22,563 nt of DNA, taken from IMG/VR virus record IMGVR_UViG_3300023281_000651, positions 1-22,563 of that record; one strand, 5' to 3'. Below are positions 1,689-21,915 of this stretch, one piece after another. The position numbers were made by a program, and so were the translations under genes. Position 1 is the first letter of the stretch, and the number at the start of each line of letters is the position of its first letter. The notes under the pieces were generated by a model. The model made no database searches. It was not told where the DNA came from and saw only the letters and a program-made list of their open reading frames with translations. Source of the stretch: a virus.

Positions 1689-3680
1689 TTAAGATTTCAT
1701 GAATGGTGGATTAATTTTTCCGTGATTTGGTGTGTCATAAGGTGCAATTGATTCTGATCCTTTTTGAACAATGAATGGATTATTCCCAACCCTTGATTCA
1801 TTTGTCATTCCTTTGTTTGGTAAAAATCGACCTCTGGAATCTGTCTTTCTGAAATATATTCTTCTCAACCAGCCATGTCTGCAATAGCAACCTCCAGAAT
1901 GTTCAAATAAATCATAAGAAGATTGTCCTTTTTCAGCAAATGATCCATTCACACTTGCTTCAGACATTGCAACAATATCTTCTTGCCTCCATTCCAAACC
2001 AGATTTTGACCAGTTCATCATTTTGTCACAGAATTCCCTTGACTTATTTCCGTCTTTGTTTGGTGTATTGCTTGTCTTCTGATATGAATATCTGACTTTG
2101 TATAGTCCAACATCACCAAAATCTGATTTCTTATCTGCATCAGCCATTGATTTTGTCGGCATCTTGTTTGACTTTGCAAAGGTCTTCAAGTCTTTTTTTG
2201 ATTCAATTTTATCTTCAACCAGTAATTCCCAAACATCATCATCATTCTTTTCAGCACAAAGTTCCAATTTAGACAAAAGTAAACTTCCATGTTCATCACT
2301 TAAAAATGGTCTTTTATCTTTTTTTTTTGCTGACAATTGCTGAAATATTGCAATTGGTTCTTCACTAAAGAAACCTTGTGCAATATCCATTGGAAATTTC
2401 AAGAACTGATTCATGAACACAATCGCTTGTTCTTGTGTCAATGTTCCTTCTTTTACTTTTGCAATCAAGTCAAGTGTTGGTTCAATATGGTCACCAGTCA
2501 TTGTTGGAATCACATCAGTCACAACTTCATCACGAACAACTTCTTCTTCTGTATTGGTAAATTCAGTCTTGAATAAATCAAATGGTTCAAAGAATAATTG
2601 AAGATTCATTCCATCTTCAGCCATCACAATATTCAATGCGTCTGTGATTATATCTCTGAAAGGATCAACAACTGTCTGTTCAAATAAGGCTGAAGCCACT
2701 TGAAGCTCTTCAGCATTGTTTCCAAGTCCACCACCATCAGCATTCACACCAAACAATCTTGGTGAAACAACTCTGTTTCCAACCATTATCTTGTTTGTGA
2801 TTTCTTTACTTAGAAATTCATATTGCTTGTCTGCATCACTTAATGGAATAGCTGTGATTTCTGGTGTTGTATCTCTGCCATCAGAAAATGTGCAAAGAAA
2901 CTTTCCAGCATTTGCAGAACCACCAAGTTCAGCTTCAATTGTTCTTTTTATTTCTTCACGTTTTTCCCTTGCTGGAATACCATTTGCAAAGTTTACAATG
3001 AAACTTGGTGCAAGACCATTTTCGATCTGTGACAAATGGAATTGTGCAACATTCACATCAAGTTCAATGTAATTCCATGCACCAATCCAATCTGGTTTTG
3101 GATAATAATATGATCCAACTGAATTCATTTTCACACAAAGAACTTGATTTGGATAAGTTGCTTTTGCTGATGGATCAAATGATTTTAATTCTGTGTATTT
3201 TGCACGTTTTCCGTCTTGCCAGTTATGGCTGTGATAGTACCAATCAACATCACCATCTTCATCTGTGTGTCCACTTCTCATTGTTTCATAAGGAAGAACT
3301 TGCATGTCCACAATTGATTCCCGATCTAATGAATAAGACATTGAAATGTAGAAACCACCATGCAATTTCAAATCTGTACACATCAATTGAATGTCATTCT
3401 TTCCAATCTTTGTGTTGATCAATGAATTGAATCTTGCCCAATCTTCTGGATGTTCTTCTTTGTTATGTGCATCAATTCCACCACCATAAATCCATGATGA
3501 AATTGAATTCACCAATGCGTTTTGTGTTGCAGAATTTTGATACAATCCAATTGTGTGTTGTGGAAACAAATTATCTGCTCCATACCAAATGAAATCAGAT
3601 CCTTTTTTCACTATTTCTTGACTGTCTGTTAGTGAATAGGATTGTCCCATTGCAGACAGATTGAATGCTTGTTTATCCAT
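1689..3680 (-). CDS. Portal protein with C-terminal Cys/His (MuF-like) domain
   Basis: A 663-residue protein. Residues 1-430 look like a portal core. WYGADNLFPQHTIGLYQNSA and the following NALVNSISSWIYGGGI are typical of Bacteroidetes-phage portals ('yg..N.fP..l..ly..sp.h.a.i..k..yi.G.G'). Later come a mixed stem region (about 180-330, including GNRVVSPRLFG) and a wing/crown region. A charged linker (about 440-520) leads to a compact C-terminal domain at about 525-620 with VRYSYQ, REFCDKMM, YDLFEHSGGCYCRHGW and LRRIYF. Its conserved Cys, His and Trp resemble the C-terminal part of MuF-like head-morphogenesis proteins. The protein would form the dodecameric DNA channel. Its start overlaps the end of the 156-residue gene by 8 nt. 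It is encoded after the major capsid gene, not next to the terminase. Confidence 0.82.
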   Translation of the reverse strand: MDKQAFNLSAMGQSYSLTDSQEIVKKGSDFIWYGADNLFPQHTIGLYQNSATQNALVNSISSWIYGGGIDAHNKEEHPEDWARFNSLINTKIGKNDIQLMCTDLKLHGGFYISMSYSLDRESIVDMQVLPYETMRSGHTDEDGDVDWYYHSHNWQDGKRAKYTELKSFDPSAKATYPNQVLCVKMNSVGSYYYPKPDWIGAWNYIELDVNVAQFHLSQIENGLAPSFIVNFANGIPAREKREEIKRTIEAELGGSANAGKFLCTFSDGRDTTPEITAIPLSDADKQYEFLSKEITNKIMVGNRVVSPRLFGVNADGGGLGNNAEELQVASALFEQTVVDPFRDIITDALNIVMAEDGMNLQLFFEPFDLFKTEFTNTEEEVVRDEVVTDVIPTMTGDHIEPTLDLIAKVKEGTLTQEQAIVFMNQFLKFPMDIAQGFFSEEPIAIFQQLSAKKKDKRPFLSDEHGSLLLSKLELCAEKNDDDVWELLVEDKIESKKDLKTFAKSNKMPTKSMADADKKSDFGDVGLYKVRYSYQKTSNTPNKDGNKSREFCDKMMNWSKSGLEWRQEDIVAMSEASVNGSFAEKGQSSYDLFEHSGGCYCRHGWLRRIYFRKTDSRGRFLPNKGMTNESRVGNNPFIVQKGSESIAPYDTPNHGKINPPFMKS

Positions 3681-15361: not shown

Positions 15362-16557
15362 CTGTAATTCATCCACTCCATTGTTTTGGCTAAATTACCA
15401 CCAGCTAAATTGTTTGTATAAACATATTCATTTAGAATGAAATCACACTTATTCACTTGTGTTGGTGATCCCAAACCAAACTTCTTATTTGCAATGTCTA
15501 TTGATTCATTTAAAAGAACAACTGATTCATTCATGTTATAATACAGCTGAACACCAGTTGTAAAAACCCTAATTGCAAAAGTATATGGTTCTTTTCTTTT
15601 GTGTTGTGTGCTTGAATTAGTTCCATTTGTTGGACAAATTGGAAATGGTGAATTTATGAAGTTTGTTGTTGCAATATTTGTGACTTGAATTTGACCACTT
15701 GAATTGATGAATATATTCAATCCCTCTGTAAATGTTTCAACATCACCAAAGAAACCAATCACATTTGGTGAAGTTCCATCACTGAATCTTCCAAAGTCTT
15801 TAATTGTTATGATGAAAGTGTTTTCTGTTTCATTTGTTGGAATATGTGACAAACTACATGTTTCAGTAAATGATGTGTCTAAGAATCTAAATCCATTTTT
15901 TACTGGTGACCAAACAACATTCTGACCAGTCTTGTTAAGAGCATCATTACCAATTAATGTATCAACAACTGGTCTTAATTCTGTGACTTGATTTGCAACA
16001 ATAGTAGTGAATGAATGAATTTGTTCCCTTGAATACCAAGCAAGAATTGGAAACACTCCATCTGGCAAAATATAATCCAATGAAAATTGTTGTTCAGTAT
16101 TGAAATACGGAATATTGCAAGCTGTCGATTCATTAGGTGTGATCACTTCAAATGATGTTGCCCATCCAGAACAATTGTCTGGTTCTGTATCAATGAATGG
16201 TGTTGCTAAAATTGGCAGCTGCATTGATATGTTTGTGTCTTCATTGATGAAAAACTTTCCTTTTGTAAGTTCTTTACATAAGTCTTGTAATATAAGCAAG
16301 GCATCAGAAAGACAAGTTGCTTCATTTCTCATCTTATTAGATGCAACATTATATCTGTCAAATACAACAACATCAAATCCATAAGTGATTGTCTGATCAT
16401 CAATTGAAGTTCCAGTTGGTGTCAAATGAAGTGCTGGATATTCTGTGAATTTATCTTTGTCAAACAAGTCTATTTCACCATAAGTGAAAGACTGTATTTG
16501 TTGATGCCTATCAGCAATCACATCAAAATATTGAATAATGGCTTTGTATGTTATCAT
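15358..16557 (-). CDS. Tail-terminator-like protein fused to a jelly-roll domain
   Basis: A 399-residue protein with two visible parts. Residues 1-150 (YKAIIQYFDVIADRHQQIQS, GEIDLFDKDKFTEYPALHLT, TITYGFDVVVFDRYN) match the short tail-terminator or neck-type protein of Bacteroidetes phages, normally about 130-170 residues alone. Residues about 170-399 look like a LamG/concanavalin jelly roll: NGFRFLDTSF, NTFIITIKDFG, EPYTFAIRVFTTGVQLYYN, NKKFGLGSP and NEYVYTNNLAGGNLAKTMEW. It ends in the 'E.i.Yn..L....' strand usual for that fold. ATG overlaps the stop of the frameshift extension (ATGA). A tail-terminator ring carrying an exposed lectin-like domain would be unusual. The alternative is an unrelated tail protein with a similar N-terminus. 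Confidence 0.6.
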   Translation of the reverse strand: MITYKAIIQYFDVIADRHQQIQSFTYGEIDLFDKDKFTEYPALHLTPTGTSIDDQTITYGFDVVVFDRYNVASNKMRNEATCLSDALLILQDLCKELTKGKFFINEDTNISMQLPILATPFIDTEPDNCSGWATSFEVITPNESTACNIPYFNTEQQFSLDYILPDGVFPILAWYSREQIHSFTTIVANQVTELRPVVDTLIGNDALNKTGQNVVWSPVKNGFRFLDTSFTETCSLSHIPTNETENTFIITIKDFGRFSDGTSPNVIGFFGDVETFTEGLNIFINSSGQIQVTNIATTNFINSPFPICPTNGTNSSTQHKRKEPYTFAIRVFTTGVQLYYNMNESVVLLNESIDIANKKFGLGSPTQVNKCDFILNEYVYTNNLAGGNLAKTMEWMNYR

Positions 16558-16796
16558 CTTGATCTTTGTTTCTTTCTCATTTCCTTTTCTCTTTCTGTTG
16601 ACTTGTCTGCTTCAAGTGAAAGTTTTGTCAGACAGAACATTAATGGAAGCCTTGTGATTTGATCGAACTTTAATATGTCACCATTTGTCAATCCATCAAT
16701 TACACTGAACCATCCATATCCACTTGCGACTGATTTTTTTCCACCTTGTTTGAAGACAGAAGAAAATTGTTTTGTAGTTCTGTTCCGAAATTCCAA
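16554..16796 (-). CDS. -1 frame extension of the tail assembly chaperone (GT-like)
   Basis: An 80-residue reading frame in the -1 frame relative to the 199-residue gene, overlapping its last 97 nt. It contains VASGYGWFSVIDGLTNGDIL and KFDQITRLPLMFCLTKLSLE, then a charged C-terminus ending KKQRSR. The GYGWFsv...L..gDi.k.d.it pattern is one I associate with the second half of tail chaperones in Bacteroidetes phages. The first codon available at its 5' end is TTG. No ATG or GTG precedes the GYGWF motif, and the first in-frame ATG is codon 53. Independent initiation is therefore unlikely, and expression by -1 frameshifting from the upstream gene is the best explanation. The fused product would be about 248 residues. 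An alternative is a homopolymer sequencing error splitting one gene. Confidence 0.62.
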   Translation of the reverse strand: MEFRNRTTKQFSSVFKQGGKKSVASGYGWFSVIDGLTNGDILKFDQITRLPLMFCLTKLSLEADKSTEREKEMRKKQRSR

Positions 16797-17299
16797 AAAA
16801 AAACAGCAATTGCATTTCCTATGTCAATAGAAAGATTTCTGAATTTAACATCATTTAATGAATGCACATCTGAATCATATGGATCAACATCATATCTGTT
16901 TCCGTCTTCCTTGATAATTGGTCTGTATAATACTGACATCATCTTTGCAATGTCATTGTCTTTTGCATAAGTTTCAAGATCTACAAATTCACCCAAAGTC
17001 ATCTCATCAATTTTAGGATGCCATCCATAGATTTCCCCATCAATCTCAATTTTGTTTATGATCTTTTTGTTGACTGGTTTGCTGATTAGCTTGTGCAGAT
17101 TCTTTTGAATCTTTTGCAAATCTGACAACTTCATCACTTCAACAACTTCTGCTTTAATATTGCAAAGTGTTGAAATGGTTTGTACTGCAATTTCATGATG
17201 GTCTTCCAGATCTTTCATGCTATTAATATAATTAGCATAAGTTCTGATGCTTATTTCAGACCATTCAGTTGGAATTGATATTTCAAATGTTTTGTTCAT
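16700..17299 (-). CDS. Putative tail assembly chaperone (gpG-like, frame 0)
   Basis: A 199-residue, mainly helical protein. The first part has SIPTEWSEISIRTYANYINS, AVQTISTLCNIKAEVV and LSDLQKIQKNLHKLISKP. Then come a conserved-looking IDEMTLGEFVDLETYAKD, MMSVLYRPI and YDVDPYD, and finally NAIAVFFWNFGTELQNNFLL. This order fits a family I recall beside the terminase in Bacteroidetes phages, interpreted as tail assembly chaperone. The frame-0 product ends at TAA 16700. Two slippery runs lie near its 3' end, T9 at 16795-16803 and A7 at 16734-16740, each allowing a -1 shift into the downstream frame, as in the lambda gpG/gpGT arrangement. It starts 36 nt after TerL, with an A/T-rich leader. Confidence 0.65.
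   Translation of the reverse strand: MNKTFEISIPTEWSEISIRTYANYINSMKDLEDHHEIAVQTISTLCNIKAEVVEVMKLSDLQKIQKNLHKLISKPVNKKIINKIEIDGEIYGWHPKIDEMTLGEFVDLETYAKDNDIAKMMSVLYRPIIKEDGNRYDVDPYDSDVHSLNDVKFRNLSIDIGNAIAVFFWNFGTELQNNFLLSSNKVEKNQSQVDMDGSV
16733..16739 (-). promoter_or_regulatory. Candidate -1 frameshift site, A AAA AAT
   Basis: In frame 0 the codons read GAA AAA AAT, giving the heptamer A AAA AAT (pattern X XXY YYZ). A -1 slip leads straight to TCA GTC GCA and the GYGWF motif, keeping nearly all of the conserved frame-0 C-terminus. That makes it the better of the two candidate sites. I did not find a clear stimulatory hairpin by eye. Confidence 0.5.
16795..16803 (-). promoter_or_regulatory. 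Candidate -1 frameshift site, run of nine T
   Basis: Frame-0 codons GTT TTT TTT TGG contain T TTT TTT, a slippery heptamer. A -1 slip enters the downstream frame at TTG GAA TTT. The site lies at the 5' end of the -1 frame. It would discard the frame-0 segment WNFGTELQNNFLL, which looks conserved, so it is the second choice. Long T-runs are also prone to sequencing error. Confidence 0.35.
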
Positions 17300-20599: not shown

Positions 20600-20996
20600 A
20601 TTCTTCAACAATTTGATTCATTTCTTTCAATGCAGATTTCAAACATGGTACACAATTGCTGGTTTTGGTGTTTCCTCCAAAATATTTTCTTTGCATATCA
20701 TACAAGACATCTTTTTGATCTGGATTGATAGTGTGTTTTACTTCTTCAAGCAATTTCTTTATTGCAAGATAGTCATTCTCTGTGACTTGTAAGTCATTCC
20801 AGAAAGAAAATGGACATGTACTGAAAGATATTTTTGTTTTCGCATCCATGAAACATCCACATGTTCTTTTGTCACCAACCTTGTTTCCTTTAATAGCTGT
20901 TCCACAAGTTCTGGTTCTTTTTCTGAAGTGTTTACAAGCTTCACAAATGGCAATTCTTTTCTGTGCAAGTTCTTTGTCTGCTTTGAATGGAATCAT
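20589..20996 (-). CDS. Cys-rich putative zinc-binding protein
   Basis: A 135-residue protein with an N-terminal Cys cluster: CEAC (18-21), C31, CGC (46-48) and C61, in the form 'iC..C..........CG............CGC.m..K......CP...W'. This is a treble-clef or rubredoxin-like zinc site. Comparable small proteins are common in Bacteroidetes phages (DUF6171-like, from memory). The C-terminal part is helical, with another pair CVPC at 115-118 and the ending NQIVEEYEK. It probably binds metal and nucleic acid or protein; no enzymatic motif is seen. It starts in an ATGA overlap with the sigma-like gene. Confidence 0.65.
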   Translation of the reverse strand: MIPFKADKELAQKRIAICEACKHFRKRTRTCGTAIKGNKVGDKRTCGCFMDAKTKISFSTCPFSFWNDLQVTENDYLAIKKLLEEVKHTINPDQKDVLYDMQRKYFGGNTKTSNCVPCLKSALKEMNQIVEEYEK

Positions 20997-21520
20997 ATTA
21001 ATTTCTTTATGTTGTTTTTTACTTTGTCAATTGTGTATTGAATACTTTTGAAAGTGATTCCAGTTTCTTCAGACAGTCTTCTTATTGAAAGACCAGTTTC
21101 ATAATATAATTGAAACAACTTTCTGTCATATTCATCAAATGTGTTCAAACAATCATCAATCTTTTCATTCATCATTTCAACATGATCATTTGAATTGTTT
21201 TCAATTCTTTTGTTTGCAAGATGTTCAAGAAAGGAATCATCAGAATTGATTTTCTTTTTCTTGTATTGCACCATCTTTTTATTGAATTGTGATTTTGTTG
21301 AATAGAATTTCACCATCATGATCTTGCAGATGTATGTTTTTATCTTTCCAGAATCTATGATGATAAGAAGTTTGTGTTGGTTCATGGTCATCAACTGAAG
21401 GAATGTTTCTTGGACCAAGTCTTCAGATAAATCCTTGTCTTTGGTTTGTTTTATTGCAAATCCAAGAAAATATTTGTAGTCTTTGTAAATCCATTCAATT
21501 GGATGCCATTGATTTTTCAT
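20993..21520 (-). CDS. Phage sigma-70-family transcription factor
   Basis: About 175 residues from the ATG at 21520. A longer frame would start at 21574 inside the upstream gene, but the ATGA overlap at 21520/21517 favours the shorter form. Region 2-like motif: DLSEDLVQETFLQLMTMNQ (about 30-48), the 'd.eDlvQetF' core-binding helix. A basic segment follows (about 80-100, KKMVQYKKKKINSD). Region 4-like HTH at the end: FDEYDRKLFQLYYETGLSIR and LSEETGITFKSIQYTIDKV. The ECF-like two-domain layout fits a factor that would direct host RNA polymerase to phage (possibly late) promoters or work like the late regulators next to terminase genes. Region 2 is divergent, so promoter specificity cannot be judged. 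Confidence 0.72.
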   Translation of the reverse strand: MKNQWHPIEWIYKDYKYFLGFAIKQTKDKDLSEDLVQETFLQLMTMNQHKLLIIIDSGKIKTYICKIMMVKFYSTKSQFNKKMVQYKKKKINSDDSFLEHLANKRIENNSNDHVEMMNEKIDDCLNTFDEYDRKLFQLYYETGLSIRRLSEETGITFKSIQYTIDKVKNNIKKLI

Positions 21521-21915
21521 TCTGTAATTGTATAGTTCACGTTTGATTCTGGAATTGTGCAAGAAAGATACCATTCAATTGTTTCAATAGTATGATCAAT
21601 CCCAGTACAAACAACTGCAATATAGTCATTTATATCTAATTTTGAAAGAACATTCTTTTGTGCTTCTGTTGGATAATTACCTTTGATCTTTAATTCAATG
21701 GCAAGTCCATGTTTGATTTTTCCATCAATGATTCTTGGTGAATAGATGAATAGGTCTGGAAAACCAGAAGTGTATCCTTTTGATTTGTAATCTCTGTGCC
21801 TTGCTTTGGCAATATAAATTCCACCAAGTGATCCATTCATGAATACATCTTTATGTTTCAACTTCATGTATTTCACAATTGCTTTCTGAAGTTGTTGTTC
21901 TTTCTGCTTTCTCAT
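21517..21915 (-). CDS. VRR-NUC domain nuclease
   Basis: A 132-residue PD-(D/E)xK nuclease of the VRR-NUC group. N-terminal helix with EQQLQKAIVKYM, then NGSLGGIYIAKARHRDYKSK, the catalytic GFPDLFIY (51-58, Asp54) and AIELKIKGN (72-80, Glu74 and Lys76), followed by TEAQKNVLSKL (83-93). All catalytic residues are there. VRR-NUC proteins often serve as Holliday-junction or structure-specific nucleases in phages and are commonly near methyltransferase or helicase genes. It overlaps both neighbours as ATGA. A branch-resolving role before packaging is inferred. Confidence 0.85.
   Translation of the reverse strand: MRKQKEQQLQKAIVKYMKLKHKDVFMNGSLGGIYIAKARHRDYKSKGYTSGFPDLFIYSPRIIDGKIKHGLAIELKIKGNYPTEAQKNVLSKLDINDYIAVVCTGIDHTIETIEWYLSCTIPESNVNYTITE

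Follow-up and report, generated by a model that had tools for sequence, protein, structure and literature searches.

The tail assembly chaperone of phage lambda is made in a short form, gpG, and a longer form, gpGT, with ribosomes slipping at the heptamer GGGAAAG. Tail-chaperone recoding is the textbook example of ribosomal frameshifting, and the 2004 set of Xu, Hendrix and Duda and P2 E/E+E' belong with lambda gpG/gpGT among the closest known systems.

Overlapping frames can also be joined during transcription. In Shigella flexneri mxiE, two overlapping ORFs are joined by one extra U in a U run to give the longer product, and in IS elements and Thermus dnaX slippage occurs on A9/T9 at a frame junction, a feature kept in homologs (PMC1088944). 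Many bacterial genomes begin to avoid A/T runs within genes once these reach nine bases, a common threshold for transcriptional slippage (PMC1088944). Transcriptional slippage runs have been described as more than eight T's (PMC3711429). In E. coli transcripts single-base insertions grow exponentially with the length of an A/T run (PMC5574713). E. coli RNA polymerase favours poly(T), with insertion-type rescue of 5% at T7 and 10% at T8 (PMC6260861).

The gene pair considered here lies in a window of 22,563 nucleotides, positions 1 to 22,563 of IMG/VR virus record IMGVR_UViG_3300023281_000651. Like lambda gpG/gpGT it belongs to tailed phages, has overlapping frames in which the short product is the start of the longer one, and relies on a net shift of -1 close to where the first frame ends. 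It differs in that lambda-type sites are ribosomal heptamers, whereas here a T9 or T10 run is kept whatever its phase, and in that the lambda-type chaperone gene directly precedes the tape measure gene, whereas this one follows the large terminase. With mxiE it shares overlapping ORFs in which one extra U in a U run gives, or here would give, the longer product; however, mxiE is a plasmid-borne bacterial regulator for which slippage was shown experimentally, while this is a phage gene whose mechanism is inferred from evolution. The IS elements and dnaX likewise carry nine A or T at the frame junction, but these are different genes, and dnaX uses A's with slippage giving the shorter product.

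The two frames and their junction

All features of the locus are on the minus strand. The frame-0 ORF (16700..17299; ATG at 17299, stop at 16700-16702) directly follows the large terminase gene (18652-17336) and encodes a probable gpG-like tail assembly chaperone of 199 residues, consisting of an N-terminal domain and a variable tail past the T9 run. It overlaps a -1 frame open from 16823 to 16554, with a TGA just before it and its stop at 16554-16556, which encodes the segment GYGWFSVIDGL. Neither an ATG nor a GTG start was found for this frame in the overlap, and near the junction its sole start-like codon is a TTG formed by the T run itself. The T9 run (16795..16803) reads GTT TTT TTT TGG in frame 0 and is the conserved slip site; the in-frame heptamer T TTT TTT that a ribosome would use (16796..16802) sits inside every T9. 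Past T9 the -1 frame is translated from 16796 to 16557 into 80 residues, LEFRNRTTKQF...GYGWFSVIDGLTNGDILKFD..., so that the gpGT-like fusion (16554..17299) has 168 frame-0 and 80 -1-frame codons, or 248 residues. A slip at a second run, A AAA AAT (16733..16739), gives 248 residues as well. The initial annotation had described this startless overlapping frame, both slippery runs and a fusion of about 248 residues made in the gpG/gpGT manner; its coordinates and frames were confirmed, the runs lie where it placed them, and the computed fusion has the length that it proposed.

Homologues were collected by pattern-based scans with frame-0 alignments, taking the best 80 of more than 500 relatives per scan. 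The survey covers 215 related loci, which represent 168 distinct contexts and 65 clusters at 70% protein identity. T9 is found in 155 contexts (153 in the -1 arrangement and 2 with a downstream frame that could not be placed), T10 in the -1 arrangement in 11, T8 in one and an in-frame T10 in one. Of the 215 loci, those that include the junction all carry T9 or T10 at it, except for a single T8 contig, and among the matches listed 209 loci keep both frames in the -1 arrangement with T9 or T10 at the junction. In 38 loci the -1 stop codon abuts the run and the -1 frame opens exactly there, therefore no earlier slip could work. The overlap has no other in-frame X XXY YYZ heptamer in 45 of 65 clusters, and all loci in the -1 arrangement have T TTT TTT in frame. 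The presence of a heptamer was not counted as evidence, because 79% of trials with synonymous resampling place one or more in-frame X XXY YYZ heptamers within the overlap; in 13.5% a T9 arises at some position of the gene. Judged against resampled sequence, what exceeds chance is conservation, not the bare heptamer.

The initial annotation preferred a -1 ribosomal frameshift at A AAA AAT and proposed aligning relatives around the overlap. Both frames are indeed kept in these relatives, but the A-rich heptamer is not, and the T run is the general feature instead. The window and some of its close relatives have A AAA AAT in frame, yet this heptamer occurs in only 5 of 65 clusters and is missing from L007-L011, L018, the cultured phage P12024S and others that keep both frames. 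Furthermore, the -1 peptide between T9 and the A7 motif (LEFR..TT.QF.SVF) aligns with distant relatives from T9 onwards, although within the window's own clade both frames are similarly constrained over this interval, which taken alone does not settle the matter. Frameshifting at A AAA AAT is thus very improbable, and the heptamer is probably incidental.

The same two-frame arrangement with a T9 junction is present in the cultured Nonlabens phages P12024S (L058:6007-6701; JQ823122, genes 38 + 39) and P12024L (L059:2998-3692); in P12024S the run lies at L058:6449-6457. Their frame-0 protein is only 23% identical to that of the window, and the pair was deposited as separate genes for hypothetical proteins (numbers 38 and 39 in P12024S). 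As these cultured members infect a flavobacterium, Nonlabens (Persicivirga) sp. IMCC12024, the host phylum is likely Bacteroidetes. The phage group as a whole is aquatic and widespread. The gene pair was also observed in two metagenome-assembled genome contigs labelled Pseudooceanicola and Euryarchaeota (L140, L141), which are probably misbinned phage contigs.

Conservation of the -1 frame, which the initial annotation had treated as a point on which its reading could fail, is evident from 53 relatives of the -1 peptide in IMG/VR and from the pattern of substitutions. Across 208 non-independent pairs, substitutions upstream of the run track frame 0, with 61% at frame-0 third positions, and those past the frame-0 stop track the -1 frame, with 59% at -1 third positions. 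In the overlap, 42% fall at -1 position 3 and 38% at -1 position 1 (frame-0 position 3), which leaves 20% for the other position (the same 208 non-independent pairs). As both wobble positions are favoured in the overlap, purifying selection seems to act on both frames in this region.

These data bear on whether the gene is one true continuous ORF split by sequencing error or decay, a reading for which several continuous forms speak. One IMG/VR contig (L030, identical to L096) has T10 and a single fused ORF, which is the kind of continuous relative that the initial annotation had named as counting against recoding, and another (L003, identical to L005) has T8 at the junction. The flanks of these contigs are 100% and 99% identical, respectively, to those of T9 contigs, and each may be either an assembly error or a real run-length variant. 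Given its identical flanks, the fused T10 contig is, as far as sequence comparison tells, an indel or variant in the run and no different gene. Two distant relatives, L056:4626-5162 and L060:2123-2665 (Elizabethkingia phage TCUEAP1), carry continuous single-frame forms after the large terminase; they have the C-terminal GDILKYD/GDILKFD domain of the group, another N-terminal part and no T9 run. The Big Fantastic Virus Database (BFVD) further contains continuous uncharacterised relatives of 258-267 residues, such as A0A6J5N0W0, which were compared as proteins, and a search seeded with L056 returned no matches. Since such continuous relatives exist, the two-frame state is not universal across the wider fold family. 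Error or decay nevertheless fails to explain why 209 loci, drawn from many independent assemblies, and two cultured phages all have the same -1 offset, or to account for constraint on both frames in the overlap, which is unexpected of a decayed or misread frame. This reading is refuted for the group as a whole and is the least probable of those considered.

Another member of the fold family, gp10 of Flavobacterium phage 6H (L225:10352-10927), has 191 residues, matches the fusion fold in BFVD and covers positions 1-190 of a 293-position PHROG. Beyond it lies a further open stretch in the -1 frame, from which it is separated by a stop codon that immediately follows T TTT TTC, making it possibly another recoded or interrupted case.

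The natural in-frame ORF of the T10 contig (L030:36-806) is homologous to the fusion and was modelled with AlphaFold2 at a mean pLDDT of 95.6 and a pTM of 0.88. In this model a single helix, residues 164-184, spans the junction. The unshifted 199-residue protein of the window ends in a poorly ordered region (block means of pLDDT 61 and 45; last 20 residues). Several uncharacterised phage proteins in BFVD match the whole fusion fold. Against the PDB the fusion model had no match with E <0.7 in Foldseek and none over Z 2.4 in VIA-align, and a sequence search for relatives with solved structures found none. The fold gave no function for this reason.

Run length across codon phases

To describe the run, the extra T's on each side of T TTT TTT were tallied and each cluster was scored by its commonest state. 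Written as (left, right), T9 occurs as (1,1), xTT TTT TTT Txx; as (0,2), xxT TTT TTT TTR; and as (2,0), TTT TTT TTT followed by a non-T. T10 occurs as (1,2) and (0,3). The run is therefore found in all three codon phases, and the phase state has changed at least nine times on a maximum-likelihood tree built from the N-terminal proteins. Left and right extra T's are anticorrelated (r=-0.85 over 65 clusters, which are only roughly independent). No cluster of the 65 has fewer than two extra T's, against about 14 expected by shuffling and a minimum of 7 in 20,000 shuffles, and no run shorter than nine was seen in the -1 arrangement among the loci surveyed.

Two codon tests address the same property. 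Where Leu follows the second Phe, a CTN codon would alter neither protein and would keep the heptamer, but all 18 such clusters use TTR (the local TTR fractions multiply to 8e-5, with clusters only roughly independent). At the second Phe itself, TTC would keep both proteins and a slippery T TTT TTC, and TTT is used in 33 of 33 clusters (probability product 1.2e-6, again with clusters only roughly independent). The Phe test is the weaker of the two, because ribosomes may slip more readily on U UUU UUU than on U UUU UUC; the Leu test and the compensation between left and right are unaffected. Together, the codon usage and phase data suggest that the guarded property is a total run of at least nine T's and not the heptamer alone.

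Neighbouring genes, amounting to 67,068 codons, contain no run of T9 or longer against 1.35 expected, 3 of T8 against 4.7 and 10 of T7 against 26, all of which are small numbers. On these counts, depletion of T9 elsewhere would be right in direction and modest in absolute terms. Elsewhere in the window, a plus-strand T10 at 2319-2328 corresponds to A10 in the coding sense of a portal-like ORF (1689-3680), which is unusual for a virion gene.

Polymerase or ribosome at the T run

The net -1 shift could also arise by ordinary programmed ribosomal frameshifting at T TTT TTT within T9, in the manner of lambda G/T with a U-rich heptamer. A ribosome could slip there as well, since this heptamer is in frame wherever the -1 arrangement is found. 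Among genes with programmed -1 frameshifting, tail chaperones are a classic case (PMC5009743), and 6-7% frameshifting has been measured in an HK97-like cluster (PMC3711429). However, a ribosomal slip leaves unexplained why two or more further T's are always present and compensate between left and right, and why synonymous variants with T7 or T TTT TTC are not seen. Stimulators of such a slip were also sought. Shine-Dalgarno (SD)-like motifs 3-18 bases before the run occur in 2 of 65 clusters compared with 4-12 at control positions, giving no enrichment. In pseudoknot-free models the 70 bases after the run fold no better than shuffled sequence (mean z -0.01 to -0.20), and the consensus fold of the window's clade reaches only -2.7 kcal/mol with no covarying pairs. 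With neither an SD-like element nor a structure found by these searches, ribosomal frameshifting at the T run is unlikely, although it is clearly a stronger candidate than a slip at A AAA AAT. A ribosomal event, the level at which the initial annotation placed the slip, is hence not favoured.

Programmed transcriptional slippage on T9 fits the sequence record better than ribosomal frameshifting, and we put its probability at roughly 0.7. It is favoured because at least nine T's are guarded in any phase and because no stimulators were found. Under this reading, unslipped expression would give the 199-residue gpG-like protein, while RNA polymerase slipping on the nine-T run at 16795-16803 would add an extra U to a fraction of messages. 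Standard translation of the U-inserted messages would then enter the -1 frame and yield the 248-residue gpGT-like protein. Whether through one inserted U or through a ribosomal slip, translation would enter the -1 frame and the protein would be identical. The longer product would consist of an N-terminal and a conserved C-terminal domain, with a continuous helix running through ...AVFF-LEFR... between them.

The slipping enzyme would be the host RNA polymerase, with a one-U insertion making the product. A gene resembling sigma-70 regions 2 and 4, with matches below Pfam cut-offs, lies upstream of the terminase genes at 20993-21574 of the window, and P12024S has a sigma-70-like gene at the same place; this is consistent with transcription by the host enzyme. 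No match to a single-subunit RNA polymerase was found in this virus record, and control genomes were equally silent.

Flavobacterium johnsoniae has an occluded anti-SD and makes hardly any use of SD sequences (PMC8710568). A host of this kind would offer less help to SD-stimulated -1 sites, as SD pairing is so little used. On balance it seems that a widespread clade of aquatic phages makes its gpG/gpGT-like pair by RNA polymerase slippage on T9, possibly because Bacteroidetes ribosomes are poor at SD-stimulated frameshifting.

Role of the pair and implications

That the gene pair is a tail assembly chaperone is quite likely given its architecture, its position in a block with tail-like genes and weak profile matches. 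The frame-0 protein matches PHROG 32199 (E=1.2e-7) and PHROG 166, a 'tail protein' (E=2.2e-4). Weak matches were obtained to PHROG 3140, 'tail assembly chaperone' (E=0.017), and to Phage_TAC_7 in 1 of 15 members (E=0.0094). No Pfam family matched above its cut-off, and a profile comparison with P2 gpE gave no match. The chaperone identity given in the initial annotation is thus plausible, but homology to known chaperones is marginal. The gene follows the large terminase and does not directly precede the tape measure gene, which is likely the ORF at 9134-7362, ~7.4 kb downstream in the same direction; P12024S has a similar gene order. As in lambda gpG/gpGT, the pair would recruit subunits of the tail tube to the tape measure.

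A search of the open-licence literature found no account of transcriptional slippage in the tail chaperone of a phage, while dnaX is the known precedent for a swap between ribosome and polymerase. Such genes have been deposited as two unrelated hypothetical proteins, and their annotation could be repaired. If transcriptional slippage on T9 is indeed the mechanism, the ratio of the two products would be set by RNA polymerase, and these phages would have reached the same architecture as lambda at a different level of gene expression.
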